A stretch of DNA of 64,000 bases from Antrihabitans stalactiti (GTDB taxonomy: Bacteria > Actinomycetota > Actinomycetes > Mycobacteriales > Mycobacteriaceae), in assembly GCF_012932915.1 (NCBI RefSeq), contig NZ_VCQU01000007.1, positions 310,001-374,000 of the forward strand. The letters run 5' to 3'. The position numbers and the translations under genes are program-made. Each line of letters begins with the position of its first letter. Positions within the stretch are counted from its first letter, which is position 1. This document shows positions 16,402 through 36,476 of this stretch, one piece after another. Below the pieces are notes generated by a model. It was given only the letters and a program-made list of their open reading frames with translations. It made no database searches and was not told the origin of the DNA.

Positions 16402-16417
16402 TCAACATGAACGTTGA
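16402..16417. promoter_or_regulatory. Island operator copy 2 (TCAAC-N6-GTTGA)
   Basis: TCAAC ATGAAC GTTGA, inside the longer inverted repeat GTTGTCAAC (16398-16406) / GTTGACAAC (16413-16421), whose 9-bp arms are perfect. It sits between scoA and the monooxygenase gene and is the best-formed copy. Confidence 0.72.
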
Positions 16418-16456: not shown

Positions 16457-16472
16457 TCAACGTCCGCGTTGA
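16457..16472. promoter_or_regulatory. Island operator copy 3 (TCAAC-N6-GTTGA)
   Basis: TCAAC GTCCGC GTTGA, 20 bp before the monooxygenase ATG at 16492 and just ahead of its ribosome-binding site, where a bound repressor would block transcription. Confidence 0.7.
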
Positions 16473-16491: not shown

Positions 16492-18420
16492 ATGCAAGAC
16501 GAAGACGGCTACTTCAACCCGGATCGCTTGAGCGAGCAGGAAGTGCGGGCCGCGGTGGCCATCGCGAACGTGCCGGCGTTGCTCATGGTCGTTTATCAGA
16601 CGACCGGCGACCCGAAATGGCTCGAGGAGCCCTATCGCCCGACCCGCGGAAAAGGTTTGGGGGACCATGATTCCGGCGGCTTGGCTCCCACATTGCAGGA
16701 CGAGATACGCGAAAATGCTGTGGCTGCGATCCTGTCGCTCCAAGCCGGTCACGCACCGGCCATCCCGTCCCCATCGCCCGAAGACACGGTCCGGATGATG
16801 ACAGTGTGCATGGGCGAACCCGTCGGCGACGAGTACGGTCCGATGCTTTCCCAGGAGCTCGCCCGCCGCGTTGCTCCCGACGCCCCCGAGATCGCGCTCG
16901 AGCCTGTGCAGCCACCGCCGGGCTTCAATGTGGTGCTGATCGGCACGGGCGTGGCGGGAATCGCGGCAGCCCAACAGCTCGAGGACATGGGCGTGGATTA
17001 CGTCATCCTCGAGAAGCAACCCGAGTCGGGAGGCAACTGGTTCCAGAACACCTATCCGGGTGCCGGCGTCGACACCCCGAGCCACCTCTACTCGTTCTCG
17101 TTCGCGAAGAACGACTGGAACACACACTTCGAGTTGCGAAACGACTTGCAGCTCTACTTCACCCGAACGATGAAAGCTCTCGGCGGGCACGAGCGAGTGC
17201 GCTACGGCACCGAGGTTCTCAGCGCTGACTACGACGAAACCACCAAGCGGTGGAACGTCGCCGTCCGCAACGGGGCAGGCGAAGAAGAGGTCCTGAACGC
17301 GAGCGTGGTCATCAGCGCCGTGGGAGTCCTCAATCGACCAAAGCTACCCAATGTTGCTGGAATGGAGACTTTTTCGGGCATTCAGTTCCATTCGTCAGAC
17401 TGGCCAGAGGGGCTCGAACTCGAGGACAAGCGCGTCGCCGTCGTCGGCACCGGAGCCAGCTCCATGCAGATCACACCGGCCATCGCAGATCGCGTCGAGC
17501 AACTGACCGTCTTCCAGCGATCGCCGCAGTGGGTCGCGCCATTCGAGAAGTTCCGAACACCAATTCCTCTGGAGCTGCGCCGGTTGATGCAGTCGTGCCC
17601 CGAGTATCACAGCTGGTACTGGATTCGGCTGTTTTGGCAGTTCGGCGACAAGGTCATCGAGTCCCTTCGCGTCGACCCCGCGTGGGAGCATCCGGAGCGT
17701 GCGGTCAACGCGCGCAACGACGCGCACCGCGAGTACTTCACGCGCTATATCACCGCACAACTCGGGGACCGTACCGACCTGCTGGACAAAGTCCTTCCGG
17801 ACTACCCACCGTTCGGCAAGCGAATCCTGTTGGACAACGGGTGGTTCGCAGCGCTGCGCAAGGACAATGTGGAGCTGGTGAACGACGGAGTCGACCGAGT
17901 AACTCCCACCGGCCTTGTCAGCAGTGCGGGGGTCGAGTTCGACGCCGACGTCATCATTTGGGCCACAGGCTTCGAGGCCGCACGTTTCGTGTCGTCTCTC
18001 GATGTCCGTGGCATCGGCGGACTCTCGCTGCGACAGGCGTGGAACGACGATGACCCGAGGGCATATCTCGGTGTGTCTGTTCCCGACTTTCCCAACTTCT
18101 TCATGCTCGGCGGCCCGAACTCGTTCCCTGGCAGCGGCAGCTTCATGTTCTTCATGGAGGTCCAGATGCGTTACATCCGTGGACTTCTCACGGAGATGTT
18201 CAAGAACGACATCACCGCGATCGACGCCACAGCCGAGGCGAACGACCGCTACAACGAGCTCGTCGACACCACTCACGACAAGACGGTGTGGACCCACCGC
18301 GGAATGTCGACCTACTACCGCAACCGACACGGTCGAGTCGTGTTCGTGATGCCCTTCCTCAACGTCGAGTACTGGCAGATGACTGAACGGCCCGACCTCG
18401 AGAACTACACCAAGCGCTGA
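16492..18420 (+). CDS. Baeyer-Villiger monooxygenase, 4-hydroxyacetophenone monooxygenase-like
   Basis: A 642-residue flavoprotein that should insert oxygen next to a ketone to give an ester or lactone, using FAD and NADPH. The BVMO fingerprint FSGIQFHSSDWP (294-305) lies between two Rossmann motifs, GTGVAG (151-156) and GTGASS (319-324). An N-terminal extension of about 140 residues precedes the FAD domain, as in 4-hydroxyacetophenone monooxygenases (about 640 residues) and not in cyclohexanone monooxygenases. The start at 16492 has GAGAGG seven bases upstream; an in-frame ATG at 16414 lies within the operators and is rejected. A strong hairpin follows the stop. Whether its ketone is aromatic or alicyclic is not known. 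Confidence 0.93.
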   Translation: MQDEDGYFNPDRLSEQEVRAAVAIANVPALLMVVYQTTGDPKWLEEPYRPTRGKGLGDHDSGGLAPTLQDEIRENAVAAILSLQAGHAPAIPSPSPEDTVRMMTVCMGEPVGDEYGPMLSQELARRVAPDAPEIALEPVQPPPGFNVVLIGTGVAGIAAAQQLEDMGVDYVILEKQPESGGNWFQNTYPGAGVDTPSHLYSFSFAKNDWNTHFELRNDLQLYFTRTMKALGGHERVRYGTEVLSADYDETTKRWNVAVRNGAGEEEVLNASVVISAVGVLNRPKLPNVAGMETFSGIQFHSSDWPEGLELEDKRVAVVGTGASSMQITPAIADRVEQLTVFQRSPQWVAPFEKFRTPIPLELRRLMQSCPEYHSWYWIRLFWQFGDKVIESLRVDPAWEHPERAVNARNDAHREYFTRYITAQLGDRTDLLDKVLPDYPPFGKRILLDNGWFAALRKDNVELVNDGVDRVTPTGLVSSAGVEFDADVIIWATGFEAARFVSSLDVRGIGGLSLRQAWNDDDPRAYLGVSVPDFPNFFMLGGPNSFPGSGSFMFFMEVQMRYIRGLLTEMFKNDITAIDATAEANDRYNELVDTTHDKTVWTHRGMSTYYRNRHGRVVFVMPFLNVEYWQMTERPDLENYTKR

Positions 18421-18478: not shown

Positions 18479-18531
18479 CGCATGAATGCGACATTCACTC
18501 AGTCTGACTGAGTCAGTGCGACATTCATGCG
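18479..18531. repeat. Double inverted repeat between convergent genes
   Basis: Outer arms CGCATGAATG (18479-18488) and CATTCATGCG (18522-18531) enclose inner arms ACTCAGTC (18497-18504) and GACTGAGT (18506-18513). All arms are perfect. It overlaps the flavin reductase stop and probably ends transcription from that side. Confidence 0.6.
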
Positions 18532-19037
18532 GTAGCGGCCGGCGCGCAGGCGCGGTAGCCGCCCTGGAAGAAGATCAGGGGATCGTCGATCGCGTCGAGT
18601 TCCATGGCGTCGACCCGGCCGACGGCGATGTAGTGATCGCCCGCTTCGTGCACGGCATCGATCGTGCATTCGATCCACGCGAGAGCGTCGGTGATTCGGG
18701 GCAAGCCCGTCGCCGTGGGAGACCACAAAATATCGGCGAACTTGTCGGTGCCCTTTCGCGACAGCGCACGGCAGACGGCCTGTTGCCGTGAGCTGAGGAC
18801 GTTGACGCAGAACCTGCCGTTCGCGCGCACGATCGGGAAGGTCGTCGAGGAACGGTCCGGCAGGAAGGCCACCAGCGGCGGGTCGAGCGACACCGAGGTG
18901 AACGAGCCAACGGCCATGCCGACGGGATTGCCGTTGCCGTCGAGTGACGTGATCGCTGTTACTCCCGTCGGGAAATGGCCGAGGACGTGTCGAAATCGGC
19001 TCCGTTCGACCGTCCGTGTCGGGTCGAGAATCGTCAT
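18525..19037 (-). CDS. Flavin reductase (NADH:FMN/FAD oxidoreductase) domain protein
   Basis: A 170-residue short-chain flavin reductase of the HpaC/DszD type, with FRHVLGHFPTGVTAIT near residue 15, the flavin-binding FTSVSLDPPLVAFLP, and RFCVNVLSS. Such enzymes supply reduced FMN or FAD to two-component monooxygenases. The ATG at 19037 has GGAAGGTGA upstream. It is convergent with the BVMO and divergent from the NTF2/crotonase operon, with three operator copies in the divergent promoter. The most likely client in this island is the LLM monooxygenase at 26.6-27.7 kb. Confidence 0.9.
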   Translation of the reverse strand: MTILDPTRTVERSRFRHVLGHFPTGVTAITSLDGNGNPVGMAVGSFTSVSLDPPLVAFLPDRSSTTFPIVRANGRFCVNVLSSRQQAVCRALSRKGTDKFADILWSPTATGLPRITDALAWIECTIDAVHEAGDHYIAVGRVDAMELDAIDDPLIFFQGGYRACAPAATA

Positions 19038-19132: not shown

Positions 19133-19148
19133 TCTACGTCCGCGTTGA
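19133..19148. promoter_or_regulatory. Island operator copy 5 (TCTAC-N6-GTTGA)
   Basis: TCTAC GTCCGC GTTGA, 21 bp downstream of copy 4. Its spacer is identical to that of copy 3. Confidence 0.62.
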
Positions 19149-20550: not shown

Positions 20551-21327
20551 ATGAGCTCAGGAATCGGATTCGCGGTCGATGGTCACATCGCGCGCGTCAC
20601 CCTCGATCGGCCGAAGGCCCTCAACTCGATCAACGCCGAGATGGACCTCGCCTTGTTCGAAGCGTGGACCGAAATCAACAACAACCCCGACATTTGGGTC
20701 GCGGTGTTGTCTGCCACCGGCGAGAAGGCATTCTGCGCGGGCGCAGACGTCAGCGGTACCGGCGGCGGCGCAGGGCGCCGAATGGCCCTCGGCGGCGGAC
20801 TCACAGGCGTCGGAGGGCCCCTGCTGACCCTTCGCAAGCCACTTGTTGCGGCGGTACAGGGCTACGCCATCGGCGGCGGCTTCGAACTCGCAATGTGCGC
20901 CGACATCATCGTTGCGGCCGACACCACGAAGTTCGGCATTCCCGAGACCAAGGTCGGGATCATCGGCGAGGCCGGCATCATGCACCGGGCGATTCGTCAA
21001 CTCCCCCACCACATCGCGTTGGCCATGATCCTGACCGGCGATCGCATCGACGTGCATCAAGCGGAGCGCTACGGACTGGTGAACGAGGTCGTTCCATACG
21101 AAAAGCTCGATGAGACTGCGACCCTGTGGGCCGAGCGAATTGCGTCCGCATCACCGCTGGCAGTACAGGCAGCAAAGGACGCCGTGCTCTCCCGTGCGGG
21201 CTGGCCGCTCGAGACTGCTCTGGCGACGCGGTACGAGCCAATCGAGGCGTACGAGTACAGCGCTGACCGACTCGAAGGGCGTAAAGCATTCGCGGAGAAG
21301 CGAAATGCTGTGTGGACCGGCCGCTAG
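20551..21327 (+). CDS. Enoyl-CoA hydratase/isomerase family protein
   Basis: A 258-residue crotonase with oxyanion segments AFCAGADVSG (near 62) and GYAIGGGFELAMCADI (near 108), and Glu in FGIPETKVGIIGEAG. Length and motifs are those of a standard enoyl-CoA hydratase. It is the last gene of the NTF2-crotonase-crotonase operon; its stop overlaps that of the convergent TetR gene by 4 bp. Two neighbouring crotonases suggest two separate hydration, isomerisation or cleavage steps. Confidence 0.92.
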   Translation: MSSGIGFAVDGHIARVTLDRPKALNSINAEMDLALFEAWTEINNNPDIWVAVLSATGEKAFCAGADVSGTGGGAGRRMALGGGLTGVGGPLLTLRKPLVAAVQGYAIGGGFELAMCADIIVAADTTKFGIPETKVGIIGEAGIMHRAIRQLPHHIALAMILTGDRIDVHQAERYGLVNEVVPYEKLDETATLWAERIASASPLAVQAAKDAVLSRAGWPLETALATRYEPIEAYEYSADRLEGRKAFAEKRNAVWTGR

Positions 21328-21998
21328 CGCTTGACCGCTCCGTCGAAGAAGATCGCGCAGAACGCGTCGATGGTTTGGCGAGCGTCGGTCTTGCGCATAC
21401 CTGGCTTGAGCCACCGGTGCGTCCAGTTGATCATCCCGAACAGCGCTTTCGCCATCAACGTCACCGACACGTCGGCGCGAAGCACACCGTCGTCCACGCC
21501 TTGCTGTAGGACGTCGGTGACAATGGTTTCGAAGCGCTTCGTCTTGCGCGCCATGTCTCTGGCCCACGCCGTGTTCTCCAAGCTCAGCTTCGCCATGTCT
21601 TCCTGGATGTAGAGAAAGACATAGGGATAGTGCTTCTCGTACGACATCAACTGTTGCTCGACCAGGGCACGCAGCTTGTCCGGTGCCGATCTGTCCGACG
21701 CAGCGATCTCGGACGCCACCGCGACGTTCTCGTTCAGCACTCCGATGAGGATGTCGTGGAAAAGCGCTTGAAAAAGTTCCTTCTTGCTGGCGAAGTAGTA
21801 GTAGATCGACGCGCGATCGGTCCCGAAACGCTCGGCGATGTCGTTGAGGGTCGCCGCCTCGAATCCCTTCTCCTTGAACACTTCTGCGGCAAGCCCCATG
21901 AGTTCTGCCCGCTTCGCCTGGTAGCCGGGACTGTTCTCGGTTTGAGCGCTGCTTCTGCGCTTGCTCATGCCACTGGAGGTCGTCGAGGAGGTAGCCAC
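21324..21998 (-). CDS. TetR family regulator, likely repressor of the BVMO island
   Basis: A 224-residue TetR regulator. The HTH lies around LNDIAERFGTDRASIYYYFASK (about 45-66), followed by a C-terminal domain like those of acyl-CoA-responsive TetR proteins. The start is a GTG at 21998; an ATG at 21968 is possible. Its own promoter carries two copies of the operator also found before scoA, the BVMO, the flavin reductase and the NTF2 operon, so it is the best candidate for the protein that binds them, with autoregulation. A CoA thioester from the pathway is a plausible ligand. Confidence 0.9.
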   Translation of the reverse strand: MATSSTTSSGMSKRRSSAQTENSPGYQAKRAELMGLAAEVFKEKGFEAATLNDIAERFGTDRASIYYYFASKKELFQALFHDILIGVLNENVAVASEIAASDRSAPDKLRALVEQQLMSYEKHYPYVFLYIQEDMAKLSLENTAWARDMARKTKRFETIVTDVLQQGVDDGVLRADVSVTLMAKALFGMINWTHRWLKPGMRKTDARQTIDAFCAIFFDGAVKR

Positions 21999-22056: not shown

Positions 22057-22710
22057 TCAGCGAACGCCCTGGGACGATGGCGCCTTCTCGGCGATGGCCA
22101 AGGCCTCACGCACGGCAAGGGCGCCGGCGCCGAGGCGCAACGCATTCGCTAAGTGAAACCGGAACGCGGGCAGGTAACGGTGGCCGGGCGTTGCGTCGCA
22201 CGCCATCGACACAAGCTCCTTTGTCAGCGCCGGGACAGTCTTGCTCTGCCACGGGACCGAACAGAACTCGAAAAATGCCGCGAAGGCTTCGGGCGACATC
22301 CGCAGTAACGCGTCGAGAAAGCCCGGGACTGCCACTTCGGCTCTGGCCCAATACGAATCGTCTCCGACGTAGTGTGCCCACAGCTCGCGATCTGCCGCCA
22401 CCGGAGCGGCAGGGTCCTGCTCTGCGGCAATACGCGCCAGCTGCCTCGACGACTCGAAGAACGTGTGCATCCCGATTGCGGCCACCACGGTGAGCACCTC
22501 GTGGACCTGCGCCGGCGTGGCGCCCGCGGCCAGTGCCAATCTGATGTACCGCTCACTGCCTTCGGTATCCATCGTGGTGACCACAGCCCTGACGGAAAGC
22601 CCGATCAGCGCGGCGGTGAGGTCGTCCAGTCCGTCACCGTCGGCCACTTCTCGCAGCACGTCCTCCGCGACCCCGCGGATCTCGGCCGACGTGACGACGG
22701 CCTCGGTCAT
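22057..22710 (-). CDS. Carboxymuconolactone decarboxylase-like (AhpD-fold) protein
   Basis: A 217-residue all-helical protein with two CMD-like halves: DLTAALIGLSVRAVVTT... ATPAQVHEVLTVVAAIGMH in the first, and PALTKELVSMACDATPGHRY... FHLANALRLGAGALAVREAL in the second. No CxxC redox pair is present, so a peroxidase role is unlikely and a CMD-like decarboxylase or isomerase role on a lactone is more plausible, which fits the lactone a BVMO would make. The ATG at 22710 overlaps the acyl-CoA synthetase stop by 4 bp. Confidence 0.82.
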   Translation of the reverse strand: MTEAVVTSAEIRGVAEDVLREVADGDGLDDLTAALIGLSVRAVVTTMDTEGSERYIRLALAAGATPAQVHEVLTVVAAIGMHTFFESSRQLARIAAEQDPAAPVAADRELWAHYVGDDSYWARAEVAVPGFLDALLRMSPEAFAAFFEFCSVPWQSKTVPALTKELVSMACDATPGHRYLPAFRFHLANALRLGAGALAVREALAIAEKAPSSQGVR

Positions 22711-24368
22711 GAAGCGGGACTCATACTTTCGCTTCTGTCGCGAAGGATCGCGCGCAACCCTCGCTTGTTGATCTTGGTTGCAGATATCGGCCACTCCCCT
22801 GCCGCGACGAAGTAGACATCACGCGGGATCTTGTAGCGACCGATCTTTCCCTGGCAGAACGACATCAACTCGTCTGCGGTGAGGTCGTGCCCCTCGCGGA
22901 TCTCGACGAACGCGATCGGCACTTCGTCGAGACGTTCGTCGGGACGACCGATGACTGCGGAGTTGAGCACAGCAGGATGTTCGCACAGGAAGGACTCGAT
23001 TTCGATGGCGGCGACGTTTTCGCCACCGACCTTCAGCATGTCCTTGAGTCGGCCGTGGAATACCAGGCATCCCGATTCGGTCCGGCTGTATAGATCGCCG
23101 GTGTGCAGCCACCCTTCGCTGTCGAGCGCTTCCGCCGTCTTCGCTGGATCCTTGTAATAGCCGTCTGTGACGCAGAACCCACGCACGAGAATCTCACCGG
23201 GGACGTCGATCGGTTGTTCCCGACGAGTGACGGGGTCGACGATGCGCACCTCGATCCCCGGTGCGGGCTTGCCCTGAGCGTTGGACCGGTCCTCGAACGT
23301 CTCGGTCTCATCGCTGAGAGCGTAGATTCCGCCGGTCTCGGTCATGCCGCACGCAGCGACGAGTTCGGCTCGCGGAAAAAGCGTCTGGGTCTCGGCGATC
23401 AACACACGCGGACCGATCAGAAAGACATAGCGCACCGAATCCAGCACTGCTGCATCGAAACTCGGATGACTGGTCAACATCTGCATGGGACCGGGGAACC
23501 AGGGCCAGATCGTCGTCGGTCGCTCCCGCACCATGAGTTCGATCGCTCGACCTGGCTCGAAATAGGTGTCGGTGAGGTAGGTACCGCCCGCTCCCATGGC
23601 TCCGATGAGCGGCGCGAGGGCTGCGATGTGAAACATCGGTCCGCCACCCCAGCTGACGTGTCGTGTCTCGGTCACCAGTCGGTGTCGTGCACGGAACACC
23701 GGTCCACGAGTGATCGCCTCGTGAGTGAGCATGCAGCCCTTGGGATTCGCCGTCGTACCCGACGTGTAGAGGATTGCGGCCACGTCGCGGACACGTACCT
23801 GCATGCGCCGACGGTCGACCTCGTCGACGGCGACACGGGCGGCGGCGAGATCGAATGTCGAGCGGGAGACGAACCCTGCGCGTTCGTCCCCCTTCAGCAA
23901 GATCGCCGCGCGCAATCGAGGCGCCTCGGGCACAGCCAAGGACCGGCCGTGGTCCGCTGCGCGCAGCGACGGTAGCGCCTCGTGCATCACGTCGACGAAG
24001 TCGATGTAGTCGTTGTCTCCCGAAACGGTCAGGAGGGCAGTCAAATCCGCGTTCTCGACGATATAGCCGAGTTCGGCGGACTTGTGCCTCGCGTTGAGAG
24101 GGACCACGACGCATCCTGCCAAAGCCGCGCCGAAGAATCCCTCGAGGAACTCGATTCCGTTGTGCGCCAACAGACCGACGTTGTCCCCGGCTTCGACGCC
24201 GAGGCCGATGAGACCTCGTGCCACCCGTATCGATCGGTCGTAGACCTGCGCGTAGGTATACCGACTCTCGGGGAAGACGATCAGATCGCGATCAGGATGG
24301 TCAGTGGCTCCTCGACCGAGTAGGTCCGCGAGGGGCGAGATCTCGCTCCAGTAAGCGTTGTTCGACAT
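22707..24368 (-). CDS. Acyl-CoA synthetase (AMP-dependent ligase)
   Basis: A 553-residue ANL-superfamily enzyme that activates an acid with ATP and CoA. The P-loop-like motif is YTSGTTANPKG (near 202), the adenine motif includes CGMTETGGIY, and the hinge region reads HTGDLYSRTESGCLVFHGRLKDMLK; the C-terminal catalytic Lys is in ISATKINKRG. Fatty-acid, benzoate and ring-acid ligases look alike here, so the acid is unknown. It starts one base into the stop of the RibBA/flavokinase gene (TGATG) and is coupled to the CMD-like gene behind it. Confidence 0.92.
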   Translation of the reverse strand: MSNNAYWSEISPLADLLGRGATDHPDRDLIVFPESRYTYAQVYDRSIRVARGLIGLGVEAGDNVGLLAHNGIEFLEGFFGAALAGCVVVPLNARHKSAELGYIVENADLTALLTVSGDNDYIDFVDVMHEALPSLRAADHGRSLAVPEAPRLRAAILLKGDERAGFVSRSTFDLAAARVAVDEVDRRRMQVRVRDVAAILYTSGTTANPKGCMLTHEAITRGPVFRARHRLVTETRHVSWGGGPMFHIAALAPLIGAMGAGGTYLTDTYFEPGRAIELMVRERPTTIWPWFPGPMQMLTSHPSFDAAVLDSVRYVFLIGPRVLIAETQTLFPRAELVAACGMTETGGIYALSDETETFEDRSNAQGKPAPGIEVRIVDPVTRREQPIDVPGEILVRGFCVTDGYYKDPAKTAEALDSEGWLHTGDLYSRTESGCLVFHGRLKDMLKVGGENVAAIEIESFLCEHPAVLNSAVIGRPDERLDEVPIAFVEIREGHDLTADELMSFCQGKIGRYKIPRDVYFVAAGEWPISATKINKRGLRAILRDRSESMSPAS

Positions 24369-25771
24369 CAGTGCACCAACATCTTCCGGGCCTGCTGCAC
24401 GTCGTTGTTCAAGGCCGCAATCAGTTCTTCCTTCGATCCGAAAGCTGTCTGCGAGCGGATCCAGCCGACCAATCGAACCGTCAACTCTCTGTCGTACAGG
24501 TCGCCCGTGAAGTCGAGCAGGTGCGCCTCGAGAAGCCTGCGACCGGCGTTTCCGTAGAAGGTGGATCGCCGTCCGATCGACACGGCCGCGGAAACGGTCC
24601 GGCCATCGTCGAGCTCACAACGCGCTGCCCAGACTCCGTCGGCGAGGAATTTGCTCGACGCCGCCGAACCGTCGTTGTCCAATTCGATATTCGCCGTAGG
24701 GAACCCAAGAACCCGACCACGTTGGTCCCCATGTTGGACCAGTCCCGTCACCACTGGCGCGTCGGAAGCGCGTTCGCCCTGCTCGACGAGTTCGACGGTC
24801 GTGTAACCGATGGTGCGGACGATTTCGGCCACGTCGGCGTCGACCGCTGCCATGTGGCGAGCGTTGTCAGACAAGGACTGCCGCTCCGAGTACCGCTCGA
24901 CCACCACCGTTCCGTGGCCGTGCCGCGCGACCGATTTCATCGCCGTTGCCAAGGAGTCGGCCAGGCCCAGCGAACCCACGTCGGCGGCGTCTTCGCGATG
25001 GCGAACGACTTGCGGTGCAGTGTCGTGGCCGTTGACGTCGGCGACGGTGTAGGCCACGAAGTCGGTACCGGTGACATCGCTGTGAAAGCCCCTCGCCACA
25101 TACGGGCCGAAAGTCGTGGCTCCGTTGTGCCGGAACGTTGCTCGCACCGCAGTTTCGGTCGCTCGGCGATAGGCCACGACATCGTCGATGAACAGCCAGG
25201 CCAACTTGTGTCGGGCCGCAAAGTCGTTGGCCTCCTGCGGGTTGGCCATTCGAGTCTCATCTGCGACGGACACCAGTGCGGTGTAGGCGCCCGCGCTCAT
25301 AACCCCAGCCAAGCGCGTCAAATCCGTGGCCGCTTCTGCCGCACCGATCTTGCCGAGCACGCCGCCGGGGTGTGCTCGCGCTGGCATGACATGCCCGGGA
25401 CGGGTGAAAGTCGCTGGCAGACTGTGCGGATCGGCCAGGAGCCGTAGCGTGCAAGCTCGATCGATTGCCGAGATTCCAGTCCCGGAACCGTCAGCGGTAT
25501 CGACCGACACCAGGTAGTCGACGGAACTGCTTCCACTGCACAAGGTCGACATCGGTGACAGGCCGAGCCGATCGGCATCGGCTCCGGTCACTGCTGCGCA
25601 GATCAATCCCGAACCGTGCCGGACCATGAAGGCAATAGACGCGGTCGAGGACTTCTCGGCTGCGGCAAGCAGATAGCTGTCTTGGTCGGCTGTACCGCCG
25701 ATGAGCACGATCGAACGACCTGCGGCCACATCGGCCAACGCCTGCTCGACTCGCGCGATGGGTGTTCGCAT
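24368..25771 (-). CDS. Degenerate RibB-RibA protein fused to a riboflavin kinase domain
   Basis: A 467-residue, three-part flavin protein. Residues 1-205 follow 3,4-dihydroxybutanone-phosphate synthase (IAFMVRHGSGLIC, TGISAIDRA, RPGHVMP), but the acidic DDEDRENEGD metal loop is GTADQDSYLL, the HTEA His is gone (GAAEA) and the CEI Glu is missing. Residues 206-330 follow GTP cyclohydrolase II, but all three zinc Cys are lost (HREDAADVGSLGLADS). Residues 338-467 look like an intact riboflavin kinase: GRVLGFPTANIEL with Thr359 and Asn361, catalytic Glu415 in LEAHLLDFTGDLYDREL. So it probably phosphorylates riboflavin to FMN, with the RibBA part as a binding or regulatory scaffold. The start at 25771 has AAAGGA upstream. 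Co-transcription with catabolic genes is unusual; FMN supply to local flavoenzymes is inferred. Confidence 0.85.
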   Translation of the reverse strand: MRTPIARVEQALADVAAGRSIVLIGGTADQDSYLLAAAEKSSTASIAFMVRHGSGLICAAVTGADADRLGLSPMSTLCSGSSSVDYLVSVDTADGSGTGISAIDRACTLRLLADPHSLPATFTRPGHVMPARAHPGGVLGKIGAAEAATDLTRLAGVMSAGAYTALVSVADETRMANPQEANDFAARHKLAWLFIDDVVAYRRATETAVRATFRHNGATTFGPYVARGFHSDVTGTDFVAYTVADVNGHDTAPQVVRHREDAADVGSLGLADSLATAMKSVARHGHGTVVVERYSERQSLSDNARHMAAVDADVAEIVRTIGYTTVELVEQGERASDAPVVTGLVQHGDQRGRVLGFPTANIELDNDGSAASSKFLADGVWAARCELDDGRTVSAAVSIGRRSTFYGNAGRRLLEAHLLDFTGDLYDRELTVRLVGWIRSQTAFGSKEELIAALNNDVQQARKMLVH

Positions 25772-25806
25772 GTCGCTCAATCCTTTTCGGAGAAGTTCTT
25801 GGTGAT

Positions 25807-25842
25807 CCGCTGGGGTGGGCGCTGTGCAACCCACCCCAGCGG
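25807..25842 (-). terminator. Hairpin between SDR and RibBA/flavokinase genes
   Basis: Perfect 13-bp arms CCGCTGGGGTGGG (25807-25819) and CCCACCCCAGCGG (25830-25842) with a 10-nt loop, just after the SDR stop. No clear U-run follows on the minus strand, so it may attenuate rather than fully end transcription, lowering expression of the genes downstream. Confidence 0.7.
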
Positions 25843-25855
25843 AGGTATTTCGTTT

Positions 25856-26605
25856 CTATTGCGCGAGCATTCCGGCATCGACGAGGTGTTCGGAGCCCGT
25901 GATGTAGGACGACTCGTCCGAAGCGAGGAACAACACGAGGTTGGACACTTCCTGCGGATCGGCGATGCGCCCCAGCGGGATCTGAGCCAACGCGTCGCCA
26001 CCCTCTTCATTGGTGGCTTCCACCATCATCGGAGTCTGGATGAATCCCGGATGGACAGAATTGACCCGAATGTTCTTGCGTCCGTATTCGACTGCCGTCG
26101 CCTTCGTCATCCCGCGGACCGCGAACTTGCTGGCAACGTACGCCAGATTGGGAAATCCGTAGTTCGCGGCCATTCCGGCGATCGACGAGATGTTCACTAT
26201 GGAACCGATACCTGCCCGCTCCATAGACGGCAGGACCGCCTTCATCCCGAAGAACACACCGTCCTGGTTGATTCGGCAGACGTTCCGGTAGTCGTTCTCG
26301 GTCAAGTCTGCGGTGGCCGCCAACGGACCGAGTACACCCGCATTGTTCACCAGAACATTGATCTCGCCGAACGCGCTGACACCGCTCTCGACGACCGACT
26401 TCCATGAATCCGGTTGCGTCACATCGTGATGCACGAAGATCGCGTTGTCTTCCAACTCTGCCGCCAGCTTCTCACCGGCCTCGTCTGAGACGTCGGCGAG
26501 GATGACCTTCGCCCCCTGTGCGACGAAGGTCCGCGCATGGGACGCACCCATTCCGCGAGATGCGCCGGTCACGAGGGCAACTTTGCCTTCCAAACGATTC
26601 GACAT
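25856..26605 (-). CDS. Short-chain dehydrogenase/reductase
   Basis: A 249-residue classical SDR. The NAD(P) motif is TGASRGMGASHA (near 14), NNAG is at about 88, the catalytic Ser is in NISSIAG, and Tyr/Lys in YVASKFA. An acidic residue at the end of strand 2 (LADVSD) favours NAD+. It should interconvert an alcohol and a ketone, for example making the ketone the BVMO attacks. It lies six bases after the LLM monooxygenase stop and belongs to the same leftward operon. Confidence 0.93.
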   Translation of the reverse strand: MSNRLEGKVALVTGASRGMGASHARTFVAQGAKVILADVSDEAGEKLAAELEDNAIFVHHDVTQPDSWKSVVESGVSAFGEINVLVNNAGVLGPLAATADLTENDYRNVCRINQDGVFFGMKAVLPSMERAGIGSIVNISSIAGMAANYGFPNLAYVASKFAVRGMTKATAVEYGRKNIRVNSVHPGFIQTPMMVEATNEEGGDALAQIPLGRIADPQEVSNLVLFLASDESSYITGSEHLVDAGMLAQ

Positions 26606-26611
26606 GACGAC

Positions 26612-27727
26612 CTAGACCGAAACCGGTGTCGGCAGGGAGATTCGGGGTGCGACTTCCTTGGCGATGAGCTCGAGGGAGTTGAACCACGGAGCCGGGTCCT
26701 CGGAGTAGTCGTGTGACTCGACCTGGAGGGTGCCCCAGCCGCCGCTGGCCTCGAACAAGGTGCCGATCTTCTCGACGACTGTGTCCGGTGATCCCACACA
26801 GAAGACGTTGTCGACGATCCATTCGAGGTTGACGTCGGACTTGTGAGCGCCGGCGTCCTTGATGAATCCGTCCATCATGCCGAAGCGCCACCAGATCGGG
26901 ATCAGGTATCGCTCGAAGCAATGCCCGATCGGACCCTCCATGACGAGTCGCTTGGCTTCCTTGTCGGTGTCGGCGACGAAGACCGTCTGCGACACGTGGT
27001 AACGCGAGCGGTCCGCGACGTGACCGTTGGCTTCGGCTGCAGTGGAATAGGTTTCCCAGTGTGTCTTGAGAGCGTCGAGACCGGAGAAGATCGACATCGG
27101 CCGGAATCCTCGTTCGCCTGCGAACTTCATCGACGGCGACTTGGCGCTGAATCCGGTCACTGCGATCTCCGGCGCACCGCCCCATGGGCTGAAGTCGGCG
27201 AGCATGTGCTGGTCGTCGCCCTCGTCGCCGTGCAGCTCTTCCGGGTAGCCGGCGTTCCAGAACTGGCCCTCGTAGAAGAAGGGGTCACGCTTCCAGATCT
27301 TCTCCATGATCTCGAGGGACTCACGGACCATCTTGTTGGTGAACTCGGTGTCCTCACCGTTCTTGATGCCGTGAATGTAGGTGGACTGCGGGTACGCACC
27401 AGCACCCACTCCGAGGAAGTACCGGCCCTCGAGAATCTGCGAGAGCCAGCCGATCATGACGGCGAGCTTCGCCGGATTGTGGTGGGGCAGAATGTGTGCC
27501 ATCGGAGCAAACTTGATCCGCTCGGTCTGGCGGGCGGCCGCCGCGATCACCAGCTCCGGTGCGGGGATGTTCTCCCAACGCTGGGAGGAGTGCTCGGAGT
27601 ACATGACGGAGTCGAAGCCGATTTGATCGGCGACTATCGCCTGCTCGACACACCAGTCGAACGTCTGGCGCGAGGTGTGCTCTGGGCGCATGTACGGGTG
27701 GACGATGAGTCCGGTTTCCATTGCCAT
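26612..27727 (-). CDS. LLM-class (luciferase-like) monooxygenase
   Basis: A 371-residue luciferase-like flavoprotein. The TIM-barrel landmarks are FDSVMYSEHSS (near 40), QTERIKFAPMAHILPHHNP and GRYFLGVGAGAYPQ. The length and the linked SDR and NTF2-fold genes recall the limonene 1,2-monooxygenase/epoxide hydrolase/dehydrogenase set of Rhodococcus, though this is only a layout resemblance. FMN from the flavin reductase, or F420, could serve as cofactor. AAAGG lies nine bases before the ATG. Confidence 0.9.
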   Translation of the reverse strand: MAMETGLIVHPYMRPEHTSRQTFDWCVEQAIVADQIGFDSVMYSEHSSQRWENIPAPELVIAAAARQTERIKFAPMAHILPHHNPAKLAVMIGWLSQILEGRYFLGVGAGAYPQSTYIHGIKNGEDTEFTNKMVRESLEIMEKIWKRDPFFYEGQFWNAGYPEELHGDEGDDQHMLADFSPWGGAPEIAVTGFSAKSPSMKFAGERGFRPMSIFSGLDALKTHWETYSTAAEANGHVADRSRYHVSQTVFVADTDKEAKRLVMEGPIGHCFERYLIPIWWRFGMMDGFIKDAGAHKSDVNLEWIVDNVFCVGSPDTVVEKIGTLFEASGGWGTLQVESHDYSEDPAPWFNSLELIAKEVAPRISLPTPVSV

Positions 27728-27753: not shown

Positions 27754-28155
27754 TCAGACGTAGAAGATGTCGTATGCGTGCTTGGTGTCCATGTACTCCT
27801 TGACGGACAGGATTTTCCCGTCGCGGAACTCGAACAAGAAGTGGTAGGCGTTCTGATAGACCTTGCCGTTCTTCAACTTTGCGTACGACGTGGCTTCGAC
27901 AGCGACCTTGTCGCCTTGCGCGATCGCACCGGTCGGAGTGACCTCCAGTGCGCCGTCCTCGTACACGGTGGTGACCCCGCTCAAGAGCGCACCGAGACCC
28001 TCCTTGTCGTAGGTCCCCGACATGCCCTCGATCCCGCCGGAGACCCAGTAGGTCCCCTCGGGGTGGAGGGTGTCGAGGATCTGCGCCACGTCACCCGTGG
28101 AGAAGACTTTCGCGAAATTGTTCGCTGCCTCGATGTTCTGTTCCGGCGTGCTCAT
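27754..28155 (-). CDS. SnoaL-like NTF2-fold protein
   Basis: A 133-residue NTF2-like protein with FAKVFSTGDVAQILDTLHPEGTYWVSG at the N-terminus, the strand QNAYHFLFEFRDGKILSVKEYMDT near the C-terminus, and the short-chain length of SnoaL/ketosteroid-isomerase relatives. Limonene-1,2-epoxide hydrolase shares this fold, but its Arg/Asp catalytic set cannot be confirmed by eye. It is the first gene of the leftward operon (NTF2, LLM, SDR, RibBA/flavokinase, acyl-CoA synthetase, CMD). Confidence 0.82.
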   Translation of the reverse strand: MSTPEQNIEAANNFAKVFSTGDVAQILDTLHPEGTYWVSGGIEGMSGTYDKEGLGALLSGVTTVYEDGALEVTPTGAIAQGDKVAVEATSYAKLKNGKVYQNAYHFLFEFRDGKILSVKEYMDTKHAYDIFYV

Positions 28156-28344: not shown

Positions 28345-31035
28345 ATGTTGACCAGGCGGCCGATGGCGTGCACTATCGACCAGGTGACGCCGGTCACAAG
28401 TAAGAAATCGACAGAGCCGAGACACCGAGTGAACTCCGACGAATGGCGCCAGATCGTCGACCTCAGGAACGAGGGCGAGTCGGTCTCAGCGATCGCCACC
28501 ACCCTGGGCATATCTCGCAACACGGTGCGTCGAGCACTGACTTTCGAGACACCGCCGCGCGACCACCGACCACGATCCGGATCGTTGGCGGATTCGCTCG
28601 CGCCCGCGATAGGCAGGCTTCTCGATGTCAACCCGAATATGACTGTGGCTCAATTGCATCGAGAGTTGCAGTGGAATGGATCGCGCAACACACTTGCCCG
28701 CGCCGTCGAGCGGGTCAGGGCCGAACGCGCTGCGCTGACACCGCAGGCTGCGGCTGGGCAGTCCTCGAACATTCCGCACTTCGCAACCAGTTTCGTCGGG
28801 AGAAAGGACGATTTACGAAGTCTGCGTGCGATGCTCGGCGAGAGCCGACTCGTCACCATCGCCGGTCCGGGTGGTATCGGTAAGACCCGACTCGCCGCCG
28901 AGGCAGCATCGGAGTATCGGCGGGCATTCGCCGATGGCGTTCGATTCATCGAGCTCGCATCGCTACGGAGCAAATCGCTACTGCCGCAAGCGGTTCTGGA
29001 CGGCCTTGGGTTCGGCGACACCGATCTGCCGGAACACAGCGTGCTCGAATCACTTGTCGGGTCCGTTCGTGACAAGAAGCTGCTGATCGTTCTCGACAAC
29101 TGCGAGCACGTGATCTCAGCCTGCGTCGAGCTGATATCGCTGATCCTCAGAAGCACCGTCGACGTCAAGATCTTGGTAACCAGTCGCGAGGTACTGACCG
29201 TTCCGGACGAGCACGTCTACGTCTTGGAACCGTTGTCCACCGAAAACAACAGCGCGGCAATCGAATTGTTCGAGAATCGAGCATCCGCCGCGATTGCCGG
29301 GTTCACACTGAACGACGCGAGTCGAGATGCAGTCCGGCGGGTGTGTATTCAGCTCGACGGAATTCCACTCGCCATCGAACTCGCCTGCGCACGGTTGACC
29401 GCGCTGTCGGTCGACGATCTAGCCGCACGGCTCGACGACAGACTCGCACTGCTGACCGTCGGAAATCGTGGCGGCCCGGACCGACACCGCAGCTTGAATG
29501 CAACTGTCGAATGGAGTTACGACCTGTGCAACTTGCGCGAACAGGCACTCTGGTCTCGACTGTCGATTTTCGCCGAGGGATTCGATCTCAAAATGGCCGA
29601 AACTGTATGCGCGAATGCCACAGTGGAAGCCGGTCAGGTGCTGGACGTTATCGCCGGCTTGGTCAGCAAATCGGTTCTGCTACGAGACGGCAGCAGTGGT
29701 ACCGTCCGATTTCGCATGCTGGAGACCCTTCGACATTTCGGAGCGAGCAAGCTGACGCCGGATGACGCGGCACAACTCCGTTGCGCCCACCTTCGATGGT
29801 GTTCGACTCTGGTCGAGTCCGCACGAAGCAAATGGACTGGCAGCGAACAGGAACGAGTCAGCAACCGGCTCCGCGAAAACCGAGCCAACCTGAGACTCGC
29901 ACTACAGACTGCGCTGAGTAGTCCGACCGACGAATCGATCGAGTTGGCATCGGATCTAATTGCAACGTGGTTCTTGTGGTCGTCGGCTTTCTCCATCCGC
30001 GAGCATCGGATGTGGATCACGCAATTCTTGAAGCTCACGACACTCAGCAACGCCCGCATCGGCCAACTCGAGGCAACAATGGGCGTCCTCCAGACGATGC
30101 AGGGTGACCGCGCCCAGGCGGCTCGAACCCTCGAATCTGCCGTCCGGCGTGCAGAATTGGCGAACGACGACGCGACGCTGGCATTTGCGCGCCAGACACA
30201 GGGTCTCAACACCTACCTCGGCGGTGATTTCGAAGGCGGCGAACGTCACCTCGACGAGGCGCTCGCGCTCTACGATCGGATCCCCGACGGCACTGCCCTC
30301 ATGTGGACTGCGCACATCGAGATGGGCATGTTGTGCAGTTCCAACGGCGAGACACTACGCGCTGCAAAGCATTTCGAGCTGGTTCACGAACAAGCCTCGG
30401 CCACAGGCGAGAAGTGGATGTTGTCCTACTCGGTCTACGGGCTTGGCCTTGTTGCTCTCGTCAAGGGTGAATTCGAGGAGGCAATCCGGCTCGCGACACT
30501 CAGCCTCGGCCTCAAGCGCGCATTCGACGACACCGTGGGAACAACGCTTGTGACAGATCTGCTGTCGTGGGCAGAGGCAGCGGCAGGCTCCAACGAACGT
30601 GCAGCCGTACTCCTCGGGGCGGCATCGTCGATGTGGGATTCGTTCGGGATGCAGCTCTACGGTTCACAGCACTGGGTCGAGCGACGCGAAGTGTACGAAG
30701 CGCGTGCGCGAAAGTCCCTCGGCAATTCGACCTACACACAATCGCGCCAACAGGGCGCCACGATGTCGCGGGCCCAGGTGATCGCCTTCGCACTCAAAGA
30801 AGAGCGGGATCAGCGTGCCGACCCTCGATCGACCGCGACATCGGAACTCTCTCCGCGTGAACGCGACATAGCCTCATACGTTGCACAAGGGCTCTCCAAC
30901 AAGGAGATTGCCAACCTCATGGTGCTCTCGGTTCGGACCGTCGAAGGCCACGTTGCGCACGTGCTCCGGAAGTTGGGGATTACTCGCCGCCAACAAGTAG
31001 TCAACGCGCTCACCGACACCGCCGGAAGGTTCTGA
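28345..31035 (+). CDS. LuxR-family regulator with NB-ARC-type ATPase and an extra N-terminal HTH
   Basis: An 896-residue regulator. Residues about 30-66 form an IS21-transposase-like HTH (VSAIATTLGISRNTVRRAL). A P-loop ATPase follows (GPGGIGKT, 174-181; Walker B LLIVLDNCEH), then an all-alpha TPR-like region, and a LuxR C-terminal HTH (LSPRERDIASYVAQGLSNKE... VRTVEGHVAHVL) near 830-890. Two separate DNA-binding domains in one STAND regulator is uncommon. It is divergent from the LLM/SDR operon, 190 bp away, and is followed one base after its stop by a MaoC gene. It probably activates the divergent operon, with nucleotide binding gating activity. Confidence 0.92.
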   Translation: MLTRRPMACTIDQVTPVTSKKSTEPRHRVNSDEWRQIVDLRNEGESVSAIATTLGISRNTVRRALTFETPPRDHRPRSGSLADSLAPAIGRLLDVNPNMTVAQLHRELQWNGSRNTLARAVERVRAERAALTPQAAAGQSSNIPHFATSFVGRKDDLRSLRAMLGESRLVTIAGPGGIGKTRLAAEAASEYRRAFADGVRFIELASLRSKSLLPQAVLDGLGFGDTDLPEHSVLESLVGSVRDKKLLIVLDNCEHVISACVELISLILRSTVDVKILVTSREVLTVPDEHVYVLEPLSTENNSAAIELFENRASAAIAGFTLNDASRDAVRRVCIQLDGIPLAIELACARLTALSVDDLAARLDDRLALLTVGNRGGPDRHRSLNATVEWSYDLCNLREQALWSRLSIFAEGFDLKMAETVCANATVEAGQVLDVIAGLVSKSVLLRDGSSGTVRFRMLETLRHFGASKLTPDDAAQLRCAHLRWCSTLVESARSKWTGSEQERVSNRLRENRANLRLALQTALSSPTDESIELASDLIATWFLWSSAFSIREHRMWITQFLKLTTLSNARIGQLEATMGVLQTMQGDRAQAARTLESAVRRAELANDDATLAFARQTQGLNTYLGGDFEGGERHLDEALALYDRIPDGTALMWTAHIEMGMLCSSNGETLRAAKHFELVHEQASATGEKWMLSYSVYGLGLVALVKGEFEEAIRLATLSLGLKRAFDDTVGTTLVTDLLSWAEAAAGSNERAAVLLGAASSMWDSFGMQLYGSQHWVERREVYEARARKSLGNSTYTQSRQQGATMSRAQVIAFALKEERDQRADPRSTATSELSPRERDIASYVAQGLSNKEIANLMVLSVRTVEGHVAHVLRKLGITRRQQVVNALTDTAGRF

Positions 31036-33315: not shown

Positions 33316-35844
33316 TCACATTGGGAGCTGCCAGTTTTGCTTACAGGTGGCGTAGTCCGTGGTGCGTTGATGTGCGGGCCTTCCGATGCCGTCGGCGATT
33401 GCGCGCAGCTCGGCAACGGATCTCGCGCTGCCATGCCGTGAACCAGCCATCCTGGAGATCGTTTCTTCCATCAGAGTCCCGCCGAGGTCGTTGGCGCCGC
33501 CCTGCAGCATCATCTGCGTGCCCGTCGTGCCCAATTTCACCCAGCTGGTCTGGATGTTGGAAATGCGGCCGTGCAACATTATGCGGGCCAACGCGTGCAC
33601 CGCCCGATTGTCGCGGATAGTCGGGCCAGGTCTGGCCGCCCCCGCCAGGTACAGCGGGGAACTCTGATGCACGAACGGCAATGGCACGAACTCGGTGAAT
33701 CCGCCTGTCTCGTCTTGGATCCCACGCAGCACTCGCAGATGCCCGACCCAATGTTTCGGGTTGTCGACGTGGCCGTACATCATCGTCGAACTCGACCGCA
33801 ATCCGACCTGGTGAGCCGTCGTGACCACTTCCACCCATGCCGCGGTCGGCAATTTGCCTTTGGTCAAGATCCACCGGACATCGTCGTCGAGAATCTCAGC
33901 AGCGGTACCCGGAATGGTATCGAGTCCCGCGGCCCGCAGTTCGAGGAGCCAGTCCCGAATGCTTTGGCCACCACGGGAAGCCCCGTTGACGATCTCCATC
34001 GGACTGAACGCATGCACGTGCAGCGACGGCGCACGCGCCTTCACCGCGCGCACCAGGTCCGCGTAGCCGGTGACCGGCAACTCCGGATCGATACCACCTT
34101 GCATGCAGATCTCCGTCGCGCCTTCGACGTGCGCCTCCCACGCCCGATCGACGACGTCGTCGATCGACAACGTGAACGCATCGGCGTCGCCCTTGCGCTG
34201 CGCGAAGGCGCAGAAGCGGCAACCGGTGTAGCAAATGTTGGTGAAATTGATGTTCCGGTTTACGACGTAGGTGACGGTGTCGCCCACCACATCCCGGCGC
34301 AGCTCGTCGGCGAGCGCAACCACCGCTTCCAGCCCCCGTCCGTCGGCGGTGGCGAGCGCAAGGTACTCGTCGTCGGAGCAGCCGCCAGGGTCGCGTTCGG
34401 CCGACCGCAGTGCGGCAACCAGGTCCGTATCGAAGCGTTCGGGCGCCTGCAGCGACAAGACCTGCTCCCGTACGGTCTCCCAATCGCCGAACGCATTGGA
34501 AATGTCGCTGCGGGTATCGGTATGGCGACCGTCGGTGTCGATAGCCGAATGCAGGTCGGTCCGACCGACCGATTCCCATGCTTCGTCGGGCTCCTGCCAA
34601 CGCAGGCCGACGGGTTTGGTGTCGAGTTTCGCCAGTCCCGTCGCCGGATCCGCCAACGCCCGGACGTGCGCGATGATCCGGGGATCGATCCACGGCTGCC
34701 CGGCGAGCACGTATTTCGGCTGTGCAGCAATGCGTTCGGTCAACACGAAACCCGCAGCGGCAGTGATGTCGGCGAGTGTGTCCAGGTTCGGCCAAGGTCG
34801 CTCAGGATTCACATGATCAGGAGTCAATGGTGAGACACCGCCCCAATCGTCGACTCCCGCACCGATCAACGCAATGCACTCCTCGTTCGAGACGAGATTC
34901 GGTGGCGCTTGGATGCGCATGCCCGGACCGAGCAGCAGTCGGGCGACCGCGATCGTTGCCAAGAACTCTTCCAGCCCAGCATCCGGCACATCCCGCATTG
35001 CGGTGTCGCCCTTGGCCAGAAAGTTCTGGATGATCACTTCCTGCACATGACCGAATGCTTTGTGCGACTTGCGGATAGCCATGATCGATTCGACTCGGTC
35101 GGTCAGAGTCTCACCGATGCCGACGAGTATCCCCGTAGTGAACGGCACGCTGAGCCGGCCTGCGTCGGTAATCGTGCGGAGCCGAACCGCGGGATCCTTG
35201 TCGGGACTTCCATAGTGGCATTGCCCTTGTTCGGTGTGTAACCGCCTCGACGTCGTCTCTAGCATCAAGCCCATCGACGGCGCGACCGGCTTGAGCCGCG
35301 AGATCTCTTGCCAACTCAGCACTCCCGGGTTCAGGTGGGGCAGCAGGCCGGTCTCCTCGAGCACGCGAATAGACATGGCGCGGACGTAATCCAGCGTCGA
35401 CGCGTAGCCACGCGAATGGAGCCACTTCTCAGCCTCGGGCCACCGGCCTTCCGGCCGGTCACCGAGGGTGAACAGCGCTTCCTTGCACCCGAGTTCCGCA
35501 CCGCGTCTGGCAATCTGGAGCACTTCGTCTGGATCGAGGTACATTCCTTGGCCGTCGGCGCGCAGCTTGCCGGGCACCGTCACGAAGGTGCAGTAGTGGC
35601 ATTTGTCGCGGCACAACCTGGTCAATGGGATGAAGACCTTGCGCGAATAGGTGACCTGTTTCGGTCGGCCTTCAGCCTCTAGGCCGGCGTCGCGCACCCT
35701 GGCCGCCGACGAACACAGGTCGACAAGATCGGCGGCCCGCGCCTGCAGCAGAACAGCGGCTTCGTCGACGTTGAGAGTCGCTCCGTCCCGCGCACGCCGC
35801 AGCGCCCGACGGATTCCGGCAGTCGAGGGCACATCGATCAGCAC
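33316..35844 (-). CDS. fbiC: 7,8-didemethyl-8-hydroxy-5-deazariboflavin synthase FbiC (CofG/CofH fusion)
   Basis: An 842-residue fusion of two radical-SAM domains that builds the deazaflavin Fo from tyrosine and 5-amino-6-ribitylaminouracil for coenzyme F420. Each half has a CxxxCxxC cluster motif: CRDKCHYC (Cys78/82/85) in the CofG half and CYTGCRFC (about 535) in the CofH half. Length and order are those of actinobacterial FbiC. It overlaps fbiD by 7 bp and is last in the fgd-fbiD-fbiC operon. A decayed copy of its 3' end lies at 50.3 kb. Confidence 0.96.
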
Positions 35845-36476
35845 GCTGTAGCTCCAATTCGCAGGTCTTCGAAGTACCGGGCCAGAACCTCCGCCGTTGC
35901 GCGACCGACGCCGAGTTGCGCGACGGCCTCGAGGTGCTCCGTGAGGTCGACATCGCGCACAAGGCCGGGACAGTCGTCGACGTCCAATGCGGCGTGCCCT
36001 GCTTGCGTGTGTGCCCGATGGGAATTGGGGCCGAATGCCGGATGCAGCCTGCTACTCGACGCGAATAGCGCCGTGGTGCCGAGTTTGTCGCGGTCTGGAA
36101 CGTAGCTGGATTCGAACTCCGCGGCGCGCGAGCACGCAGTGGAGAATTCTGCGGGTGTCAGCGCCGGCAAGTCTGCCATCACCACTGCGATATCCGAACG
36201 AGGCGCCGCCGCGCGAATAGCCGCGGCGCCGGTATGTAGCGCTTCGTTGAGCCCGCGCGGTGTGTGCGTGACAGACACGTCCGGCAGCACGGAAAGGCTC
36301 TGTCGCACAATGTGATCGTCGGTGAGGACCAGGATCATCGCGATGTCCGCGCATTGGCTGACTGCCGCGATCGTGTCCTTGGCAAAGGCTATGGCAAAGG
36401 CAGAACGTAGACCGCCGACGTCCAGCCTCGTTTTGGCGTGCGTAAGCCGCTTGACGGGAAGCAGTACGGACCGCAT
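35838..36476 (-). CDS. fbiD: Phosphoenolpyruvate/2-phospho-L-lactate guanylyltransferase FbiD (CofC)
   Basis: A 212-residue nucleotidyltransferase that primes F420 assembly by joining GMP to phosphoenolpyruvate or 2-phospholactate. The N-terminal [14 protein letters not shown] matches the GTP-binding start of CofC, and [11 protein letters not shown] is the metal-binding acidic loop; GTTALFASS follows. It overlaps fbiC by 7 bp and lies 29 bp after fgd. Confidence 0.94.

Follow-up and report, generated by a model that had tools for sequence, protein, structure and literature searches.

We examined a 64,000-nucleotide stretch of the Antrihabitans stalactiti genome (contig NZ_VCQU01000007.1, positions 310,001 to 374,000; hereafter the window), in which a single minus-strand gene joins RibB-like, RibA-like and riboflavin kinase (RFK) parts. 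The gene starts at an ATG at position 25771, with an AGGA upstream, and lies within a run of genes for a SnoaL-like protein, a luciferase-like monooxygenase (LLM), a short-chain dehydrogenase (SDR), the fusion protein, an AMP-binding CoA ligase and a carboxymuconolactone decarboxylase-like protein (CMD), in which successive genes are separated by 26, 6 and 84 nucleotides and then overlap by 1 and 4 nucleotides (Table 1). Pfam assigns residues 9–201 of the fusion protein to DHBP_synthase (E 5e-49) and residues 341–465 to Flavokinase (E 5e-32), and gave no match to GTP cyclohydrolase II at E 0.001; NCBIfam RibBA profiles aligned residues 4–305. An AlphaFold2 model (mean predicted local distance difference test score 81) found Mycobacterium tuberculosis RibA2 (4i14) as its best match in Foldseek and also matched Acinetobacter baumannii RibBX (6mnz), with ~330 columns aligned to each, as well as riboflavin kinases such as 1n06 (129 columns for 1n06). 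By both its Pfam match and its Foldseek matches to RibB structures, the N-terminal domain belongs to the RibB fold and sequence family.

Using the intact RibBA of the same genome as a reference, we found that the catalytic residues of both RibB and RibA are missing from the fusion. Three RibB segments are altered: the acidic metal loop DDEDRENEGDL reads GGTADQDSYL, GHTEA reads GAAEA and ICEIVS reads YTALVS, which removes the loop, His and Glu residues that we take to be the RibB metal ligands and catalytic Glu. In the middle domain, HSECLTGDVFGSLRCDCG of the intact protein is replaced by RHREDAADVGSLGLAD, leaving none of the three zinc cysteines, and the GHEGRG catalytic segment and most of the downstream sequence are gone, so that both hallmarks of RibA are absent. 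The C-terminal domain retains GFPTAN (T359, N361) and LLEAHLLDF (E415) and is an RFK by fold, PTAN and catalytic Glu; T359, N361 and E415, presumably catalytic, are invariant across the six intact fusions aligned. The original prediction, made from the letters of the window, had described a RibB part without its acidic loop, HTEA His and a further Glu, a RibA part without its three zinc cysteines and an RFK with PTAN and its catalytic Glu; all of these points hold, and the RibA loss is far larger than described, extending to the GHEGRG segment and beyond. The comparisons confirm that the gene, as judged from its sequence, encodes a dead RibB-like domain, a shrunken and dead RibA-like domain and an intact-looking RFK.

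A Pfam scan of the fusion protein found no FMN adenylyltransferase module, so flavin mononucleotide (FMN) would not be passed on to flavin adenine dinucleotide (FAD). Elsewhere in the genome are a RibF-type RFK and a RibBA whose motifs are complete, and each of the seven fusion genomes identified below has a further Flavokinase match, spanning the entire profile, that we took as RibF. We reject the possibility, raised with the original prediction, that the fusion is the only RFK or RibBA of its genome and thus a housekeeping gene, because the genome has its own RibF and RibBA.

Table 1. Features of the fusion gene and its surroundings (positions within the window unless a locus is named).
Feature	Position	Strand	Basis or remark
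RibB-RibA(X)-RFK fusion gene, 467 aa	24368..25771	-	Open reading frame, Pfam, NCBIfam, AlphaFold2, Foldseek
RibB-like (DHBP synthase fold) domain, residues 9-201, active site lost	25169..25747	-	Pfam, family alignment
Former RibB metal/acidic loop, residues 25-34, GGTADQDSYL	25670..25699	-	Compared with intact DDEDRENEGDL
RibA-like (RibX-like) middle domain, residues about 206-335 (~130 aa), without zinc Cys or GHEGRG segment	24767..25156	-	Alignment, Foldseek
RFK domain, residues 341-465, PTAN and E415 present	24377..24751	-	Pfam, motif alignment
SnoaL-like gene, first of run	27754..28155	-	Domain scan
LLM, type II Baeyer-Villiger monooxygenase relative of 3,6-diketocamphane 1,6-monooxygenase	26612..27727	-	75% identity
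SDR	25856..26605	-	Domain scan
Hairpin, 17 pairs, z -4.7, between SDR and fusion genes	25806..25843	-	Folding
AMP-binding CoA ligase, 1-nt overlap with fusion gene	22707..24368	-	Domain scan
CMD gene	22057..22710	-	Domain scan
TetR-family regulator, candidate palindrome reader	21324..21968	-	Domain scan
Flavin reductase, candidate reductase partner of LLM	18525..19037	-	Sequence comparison
Type I Baeyer-Villiger monooxygenase (CHMO/PAMO/OTEMO-like)	16492..18420	+	Sequence comparison
Palindrome TCAACGTNNACGTTGA, 1 mismatch	16402..16417	.	
Palindrome TCAACGTNNACGTTGA, 1 mismatch	16457..16472	.	
Palindrome TCAACGTNNACGTTGA, 2 mismatches, between flavin reductase and SnoaL/enoyl-CoA hydratase genes	19133..19148	.	
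Frameshifted extra fusion copy in G271	L164:6067-7558		~10 kb from unbroken copy

We searched 401 genomes of the same bacterial family, a draw from a larger group in which four candidates were scored per genome and the best-scoring matches listed, so that a more divergent fusion could be missed. Among the matches listed, the fusion occurs in six further genomes at 44–49% tblastn identity; it is found in one of four genomes of its own genus and in one of 37 of the genus of G268. Draws from the order (397 genomes) and the phylum (396) returned only the window's own gene, plus a threshold-score match in G033 that is the intact RibBA of locus L082. None of 55 loci from genome contigs covered the fusion over its whole length, and none of 332 plasmid records covered 80% of the protein. 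Five additional relatives lack the RFK, giving a protein family of 12 members that form one clade (support 98/98), separate from the RibBA and RibBX rows of the tree; descent of the RibB part from proteobacterial RibBX finds no support there. Two fusions group with four of the RFK-less members (89/87), the fifth RFK-less member falling with others; this scatter implies that the RFK is ancestral or has been lost or gained repeatedly. Two RFK-less RibB-like genes, at L005:7983-8636 and L098:9674-10744, have lost the same residues; around the former are genes for a type I Baeyer-Villiger monooxygenase (BVMO)-like protein, a thiolase, an OB-fold protein and a MaoC protein, and the open reading frames around the latter are similar judging by their first residues. 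A different, partly degenerate RibB-like gene lies near an LLM gene and a ring-hydroxylating dioxygenase gene on a Mycobacterium branderi plasmid (L148:7950-9059).

The loss of the RibB site is shared across the family. Fifty positions are invariant in 16 intact RibB domains, a count that excludes the partly degenerate rows L148, L008 and L015 outside the clade; ten of these are lost by all 12 family members, 21 are kept by all and 19 are mixed. Nine of the ten universally lost positions fall in three active-site loops (12/12 members versus 16/16 intact rows). Conversely, all 12 dead members share six residues (R7, D31, A59, A145, A165 and L166), each of which occurs in at most one of the 16 intact RibBs. 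The common replacements D31, A145, A165 and L166 indicate that the catalytic loss is old and has been retained.

Such family-specific residues would suit a regulatory pseudoenzyme, in which the pseudo-RibBA part either senses a ligand (a flavin, a precursor of riboflavin or a compound of the pathway) or partners the cell's own RibBA, and gates FMN production or represses riboflavin synthesis, with RFK activity being secondary. The RFK-less members persist as well, two of them within type I BVMO gene runs (L005 and L098). The X domain of Shewanella oneidensis RibBX is reported to regulate RibB (cited in PMC10012899). However, no ligand or partner is on record, and conservation between the window and L092 is higher in the RFK (68%) than in the middle domain (31%), which suggests that the kinase matters; we regard a primarily regulatory role as rather unlikely. 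Retention of TGISAxDRA and FTRPGH in all 12 members, beside the new invariants, could alternatively reflect a new catalytic activity of the RibB-like domain on a pathway intermediate. The metal ligands and catalytic Glu are gone, however, and the retained residues may be structural. As we also know of no precedent for a RibB-like domain with a new catalytic activity, we think this explanation improbable.

We estimated nonsynonymous and synonymous divergence (dN/dS) within the RibB domain and obtained 0.065/0.438 (~0.15) for L090/L092, 0.187/1.62 (~0.12) for L091/L095 and 0.403/1.99 (~0.20) for the window and L092, with dS near saturation in the last two pairs, and 0.009/0.031 (~0.3) for the closest pair, which has few changes. 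Because all 12 members lack the same residues, form one clade and show RibB dN/dS values of 0.1–0.3 in four pairs, we conclude that the fusion is not decaying. A nonfunctional fusion that drifts and is retained through its place in a useful cluster could account for its divergence among cluster genomes (44–49% tblastn identity, versus 88–96% for the LLM and 70–75% for the AMP ligase), for the frameshifted copies in G237 and G271 and for the few changes separating the closest pair. But CMD is equally divergent (46–53%), the fusion is unbroken in six of seven genomes and the upstream palindrome described below is conserved in six. Together with the RibB dN/dS values and the shared residue losses, this makes drift very unlikely.

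We observed that the LLM encoded beside the fusion shares 75.4% identity over 366 amino acids with 3,6-diketocamphane 1,6-monooxygenase (3,6-DKCMO) and, by homology, is a type II BVMO. Type II Baeyer-Villiger enzymes of the diketocamphane kind are described as receiving FMNH2 from a separate reductase (PMC12239570; PMC4631483). Near the fusion operon are genes for a flavin reductase, CoA transferases, enoyl-CoA hydratases, a TetR regulator and a type I BVMO. The operon had been predicted to be of BVMO/LLM/CoA type; its LLM and AMP-binding CoA ligase stand, and the type I BVMO proves to lie 6 kb away on the other strand. A kinase next to an LLM could also belong to riboflavin breakdown instead of supply, as in Microbacterium, where the five-gene RcaE set reportedly includes an RFK. 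RcaE is described as an FMN-dependent riboflavin monooxygenase encoded within that set (PMC12746152). The window LLM is a relative of diketocamphane monooxygenase, though, and its 17 Protein Data Bank matches, judged by chain names, include none named riboflavin lyase; riboflavin catabolism finds no support among these matches, and we consider it extremely improbable.

The association of the fusion with LLM genes recurs in other genomes. An LLM of at least 88% identity occurs in seven of the 401 family genomes (next best 46–47%), and among the matches listed the same seven hold the fusion, five of them among the 28 genomes of one genus. If the two genes were independent, the chance of this match would be 3e-15 overall and 1e-5 within the 28-genome genus; shared descent and whole-cluster transfer account for part of the co-occurrence. 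Gene order varies among the fusion genomes (neighboring genes in unannotated loci come from a simple open reading frame caller). A P450cam relative adjoins the fusion in G277 and G237; the one in G277 (E 7e-158 to P450cam) is followed by a reductase gene, with a small gene for a likely ferredoxin, and in G271 a P450cam relative with an internal stop lies ~1.4 kb before the fusion. We do not hold camphor to be the certain substrate: the window P450 is CYP153-like, and a search of the genome at E 1e-40 gave no match of P450cam type. We describe the cluster of this soil bacterium as one of terpene-ketone-type breakdown.

Other features of the window were also noted. The P450 gene, at 12711-14096, is close to the CYP153 alkane hydroxylases. 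A regulator at 28345-31035 combines an NB-ARC ATPase with a LuxR-type helix-turn-helix (HTH) and an additional N-terminal HTH, and has relatives at 54–69% identity in the clusters and 36% in G271. A radical SAM/CofH_C protein and a small gene behind it (33316-36476), which we take to resemble F420 biosynthesis genes, lie upstream of further LLM and acyl-CoA genes. The hairpin in Table 1 sits ~34 nucleotides from the fusion start codon and may stabilize or attenuate the message. Rfam gave no FMN riboswitch match at the gathering threshold in the window, L091, L092, L094 or L101.

We identified a palindrome, TCAACGTNNACGTTGA, upstream of all eight fusion-gene copies in L090–L096. At up to two mismatches it occurs at 28 merged sites in ten cluster loci, all 28 intergenic and none genic (36 kb versus 193 kb), and in six control loci at no intergenic site and one genic site. 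The palindrome was spotted first before six fusions and its form was chosen afterwards, so the 28-site count, of which 22 sites lie beyond the first six, is not an independent test; the 28:0 split is still telling. Sites also occur near LLM2, AMP ligase, flavin reductase, TetR and SDR genes, and those of the window precede the CoA transferases and the BVMO, and the flavin reductase. We infer that the TetR regulator reads the palindrome.

Elsewhere, RFK and RibB(X) accompany LLMs as separate genes. Plasmid pSH1 of Sphingobium xenophagum carries a homologous cluster (enoyl-CoA hydratases 63–66%, CoA transferases 53–57%, AMP ligase 52%, LLM 44%, TetR 41%) in which an RFK (33%) and a RibBX with intact RibB motifs (34%) are two genes; the palindrome lies ~50 nucleotides before the RFK gene and again between the TetR gene and a DUF2889 gene that precedes RibBX. 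This cluster also encodes a flavin reductase and, adjoining it at L184:11942-12166, a dodecin, a member of a family of flavin-storing proteins; tblastn found no dodecin match at E 0.01 in 11 actinobacterial cluster loci. In Novosphingobium ES2-1, RibBX lies between an AMP ligase gene and, beyond a TetR gene, an LLM gene whose product is 71% identical to the window LLM. A survey of plasmid RFKs covered 60 of 67 records (22 RibF-type, 28 unclassified for lack of usable annotation and 10 standalone, all viewed). Every one of the ten standalone RFKs has an LLM within ~11 kb and nine have a flavin reductase, near-identical clusters reducing the ten to about seven independent cases. On two Phaeobacter plasmids an LLM, a ribB with intact motifs, a flavin reductase and an RFK occur together. 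Seven plasmid ribB(X) genes were viewed without LLM as a selection criterion; an LLM lies within 9 kb of five (H2, H53, H59, H61 and H62, of which H53 was picked knowing that its strain has an LLM) but not of the other two (H45 and H54). In Rhodococcus D-6, a 214-amino-acid RibBA-like gene is reported between both genes of a two-component monooxygenase and co-induced with them (PMC12442392).

These results make it probable, in our judgment, that the fusion is a catabolic, pathway-dedicated FMN-producing kinase built on a pseudo-RibBA scaffold. The C-terminal RFK would phosphorylate riboflavin to FMN, stopping before FAD, and the flavin reductase of the cluster would reduce this FMN, supplying the diketocamphane-type LLM with FMNH2. 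Such a kinase, lacking an FAD-forming module and produced while the pathway is active, would raise FMN at need, and this on-demand supply is a well-supported prediction. The dedicated FMN supplier of the original prediction is likewise favored by the separate RibF and RibBA, the seven-genome co-occurrence among the matches listed, the operator-like palindrome that fusion and pathway genes have in common in other genomes and the separate genes of pSH1. The RibB and RibA parts, their catalysis gone, would persist as a conserved folded body that most likely oligomerizes, holds or regulates the kinase; that they are conserved although no catalytic site remains supports their predicted scaffold role indirectly. 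RibB enzymes are dimers, and we propose that the pseudo-RibBA part supplies a body of this dimeric kind and may also restrain the kinase.

Several observations weigh against a pathway-dedicated kinase. The window's own SnoaL-LLM-SDR-fusion run is not directly preceded by a palindrome. The RFK-less relatives (L097–L099 and L005) adjoin other genes, and no palindrome was found with them, so the role of the RibBA part can be separated from the RFK. The middle domain is weakly constrained between the window and L092 (dN/dS 0.894/1.785, ~0.5), and of the six fusions aligned, four have RTAN in place of PTAN. A frameshift splits the RFK of G237, where the LLM lies ~21 kb from the fusion; G271 has two extra copies of the fusion, one with a frameshift and one lacking the RFK; and in G277 the LLM and the fusion are on different contigs. 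Neither G000 nor G268 gave a P450cam-type match at E 1e-40, so camphor itself may not be the substrate. Finally, two RibF-type plasmid controls show no LLM in view, and there are only two such controls.

To our knowledge, accounts of two-component monooxygenases draw free FMN from the general pool of the cell; our analysis points to catabolic clusters that carry an FMN kinase of their own. This could account for the orphan riboflavin kinase and ribB genes that lie close to LLM genes and suggests parts for Baeyer-Villiger biocatalysts. High FMN is reported to inhibit reductases via peroxide in aerobic assays (PMC5192521). We tentatively suggest, as a possibility short of an expectation, that LLM-type catabolic clusters bring their own flavin-supply module (RibB or RibBX, RFK, flavin reductase and once a dodecin) under the pathway regulator, and that in actinobacteria this module has merged into one protein whose pseudo-RibBA senses flavin or pairs with the housekeeping RibBA and gates the FMN kinase. 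Such pseudoenzyme-controlled cofactor supply might avoid the peroxide cost of excess FMN. The fusion is also a clear case of two dead enzyme domains under selection beside an intact-looking one, and makes it possible to test immediately whether the live half is under the control of the dead half.

The original prediction knew of no characterized protein with this architecture, and the open-licence literature searched yielded neither an account of a RibB-RibA-RFK fusion nor a mention of RFK genes partnering LLMs. Among known systems, M. tuberculosis RibA2 (4i14), a RibBA, has the same domain order and fold, but the fusion keeps neither active site. RibBX, a functional RibB joined to a GTP-cyclohydrolase-dead RibA-like domain, resembles the fusion in its RibB and zinc-free RibA-like body, and the model matches 6mnz; the middle domain fits this type, but the RibB of the fusion is also dead, an RFK has been added and in the tree the protein does not group with the clade formed by the four RibBX rows. 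The bifunctional riboflavin kinase/FAD synthetase RibF has a homologous RFK domain, but no FMN adenylyltransferase module was found in the fusion. The 3,6-diketocamphane monooxygenase of the Pseudomonas putida CAM plasmid is 75% identical to the window LLM; the CAM system differs in that the sources of FMNH2 investigated for it are the chromosomal Frp1, Frp2 and Fred together with plasmid-encoded putidaredoxin reductase (PMC6843404), of which Frp1 is described as working with FMN, riboflavin being inactive (PMC5192521). The standalone RFKs near LLM genes (Arthrobacter p2MP and pDCT5, and Phaeobacter, Agrobacterium, Rhizobium, Maritalea and Sphingobium plasmids) likewise combine RFK and LLM, usually with a flavin reductase, but as separate genes and without a pseudo-RibBA. 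By the tests made here the fusion is not a RibB, RibA or RibBX, and it should work like a standalone riboflavin kinase.

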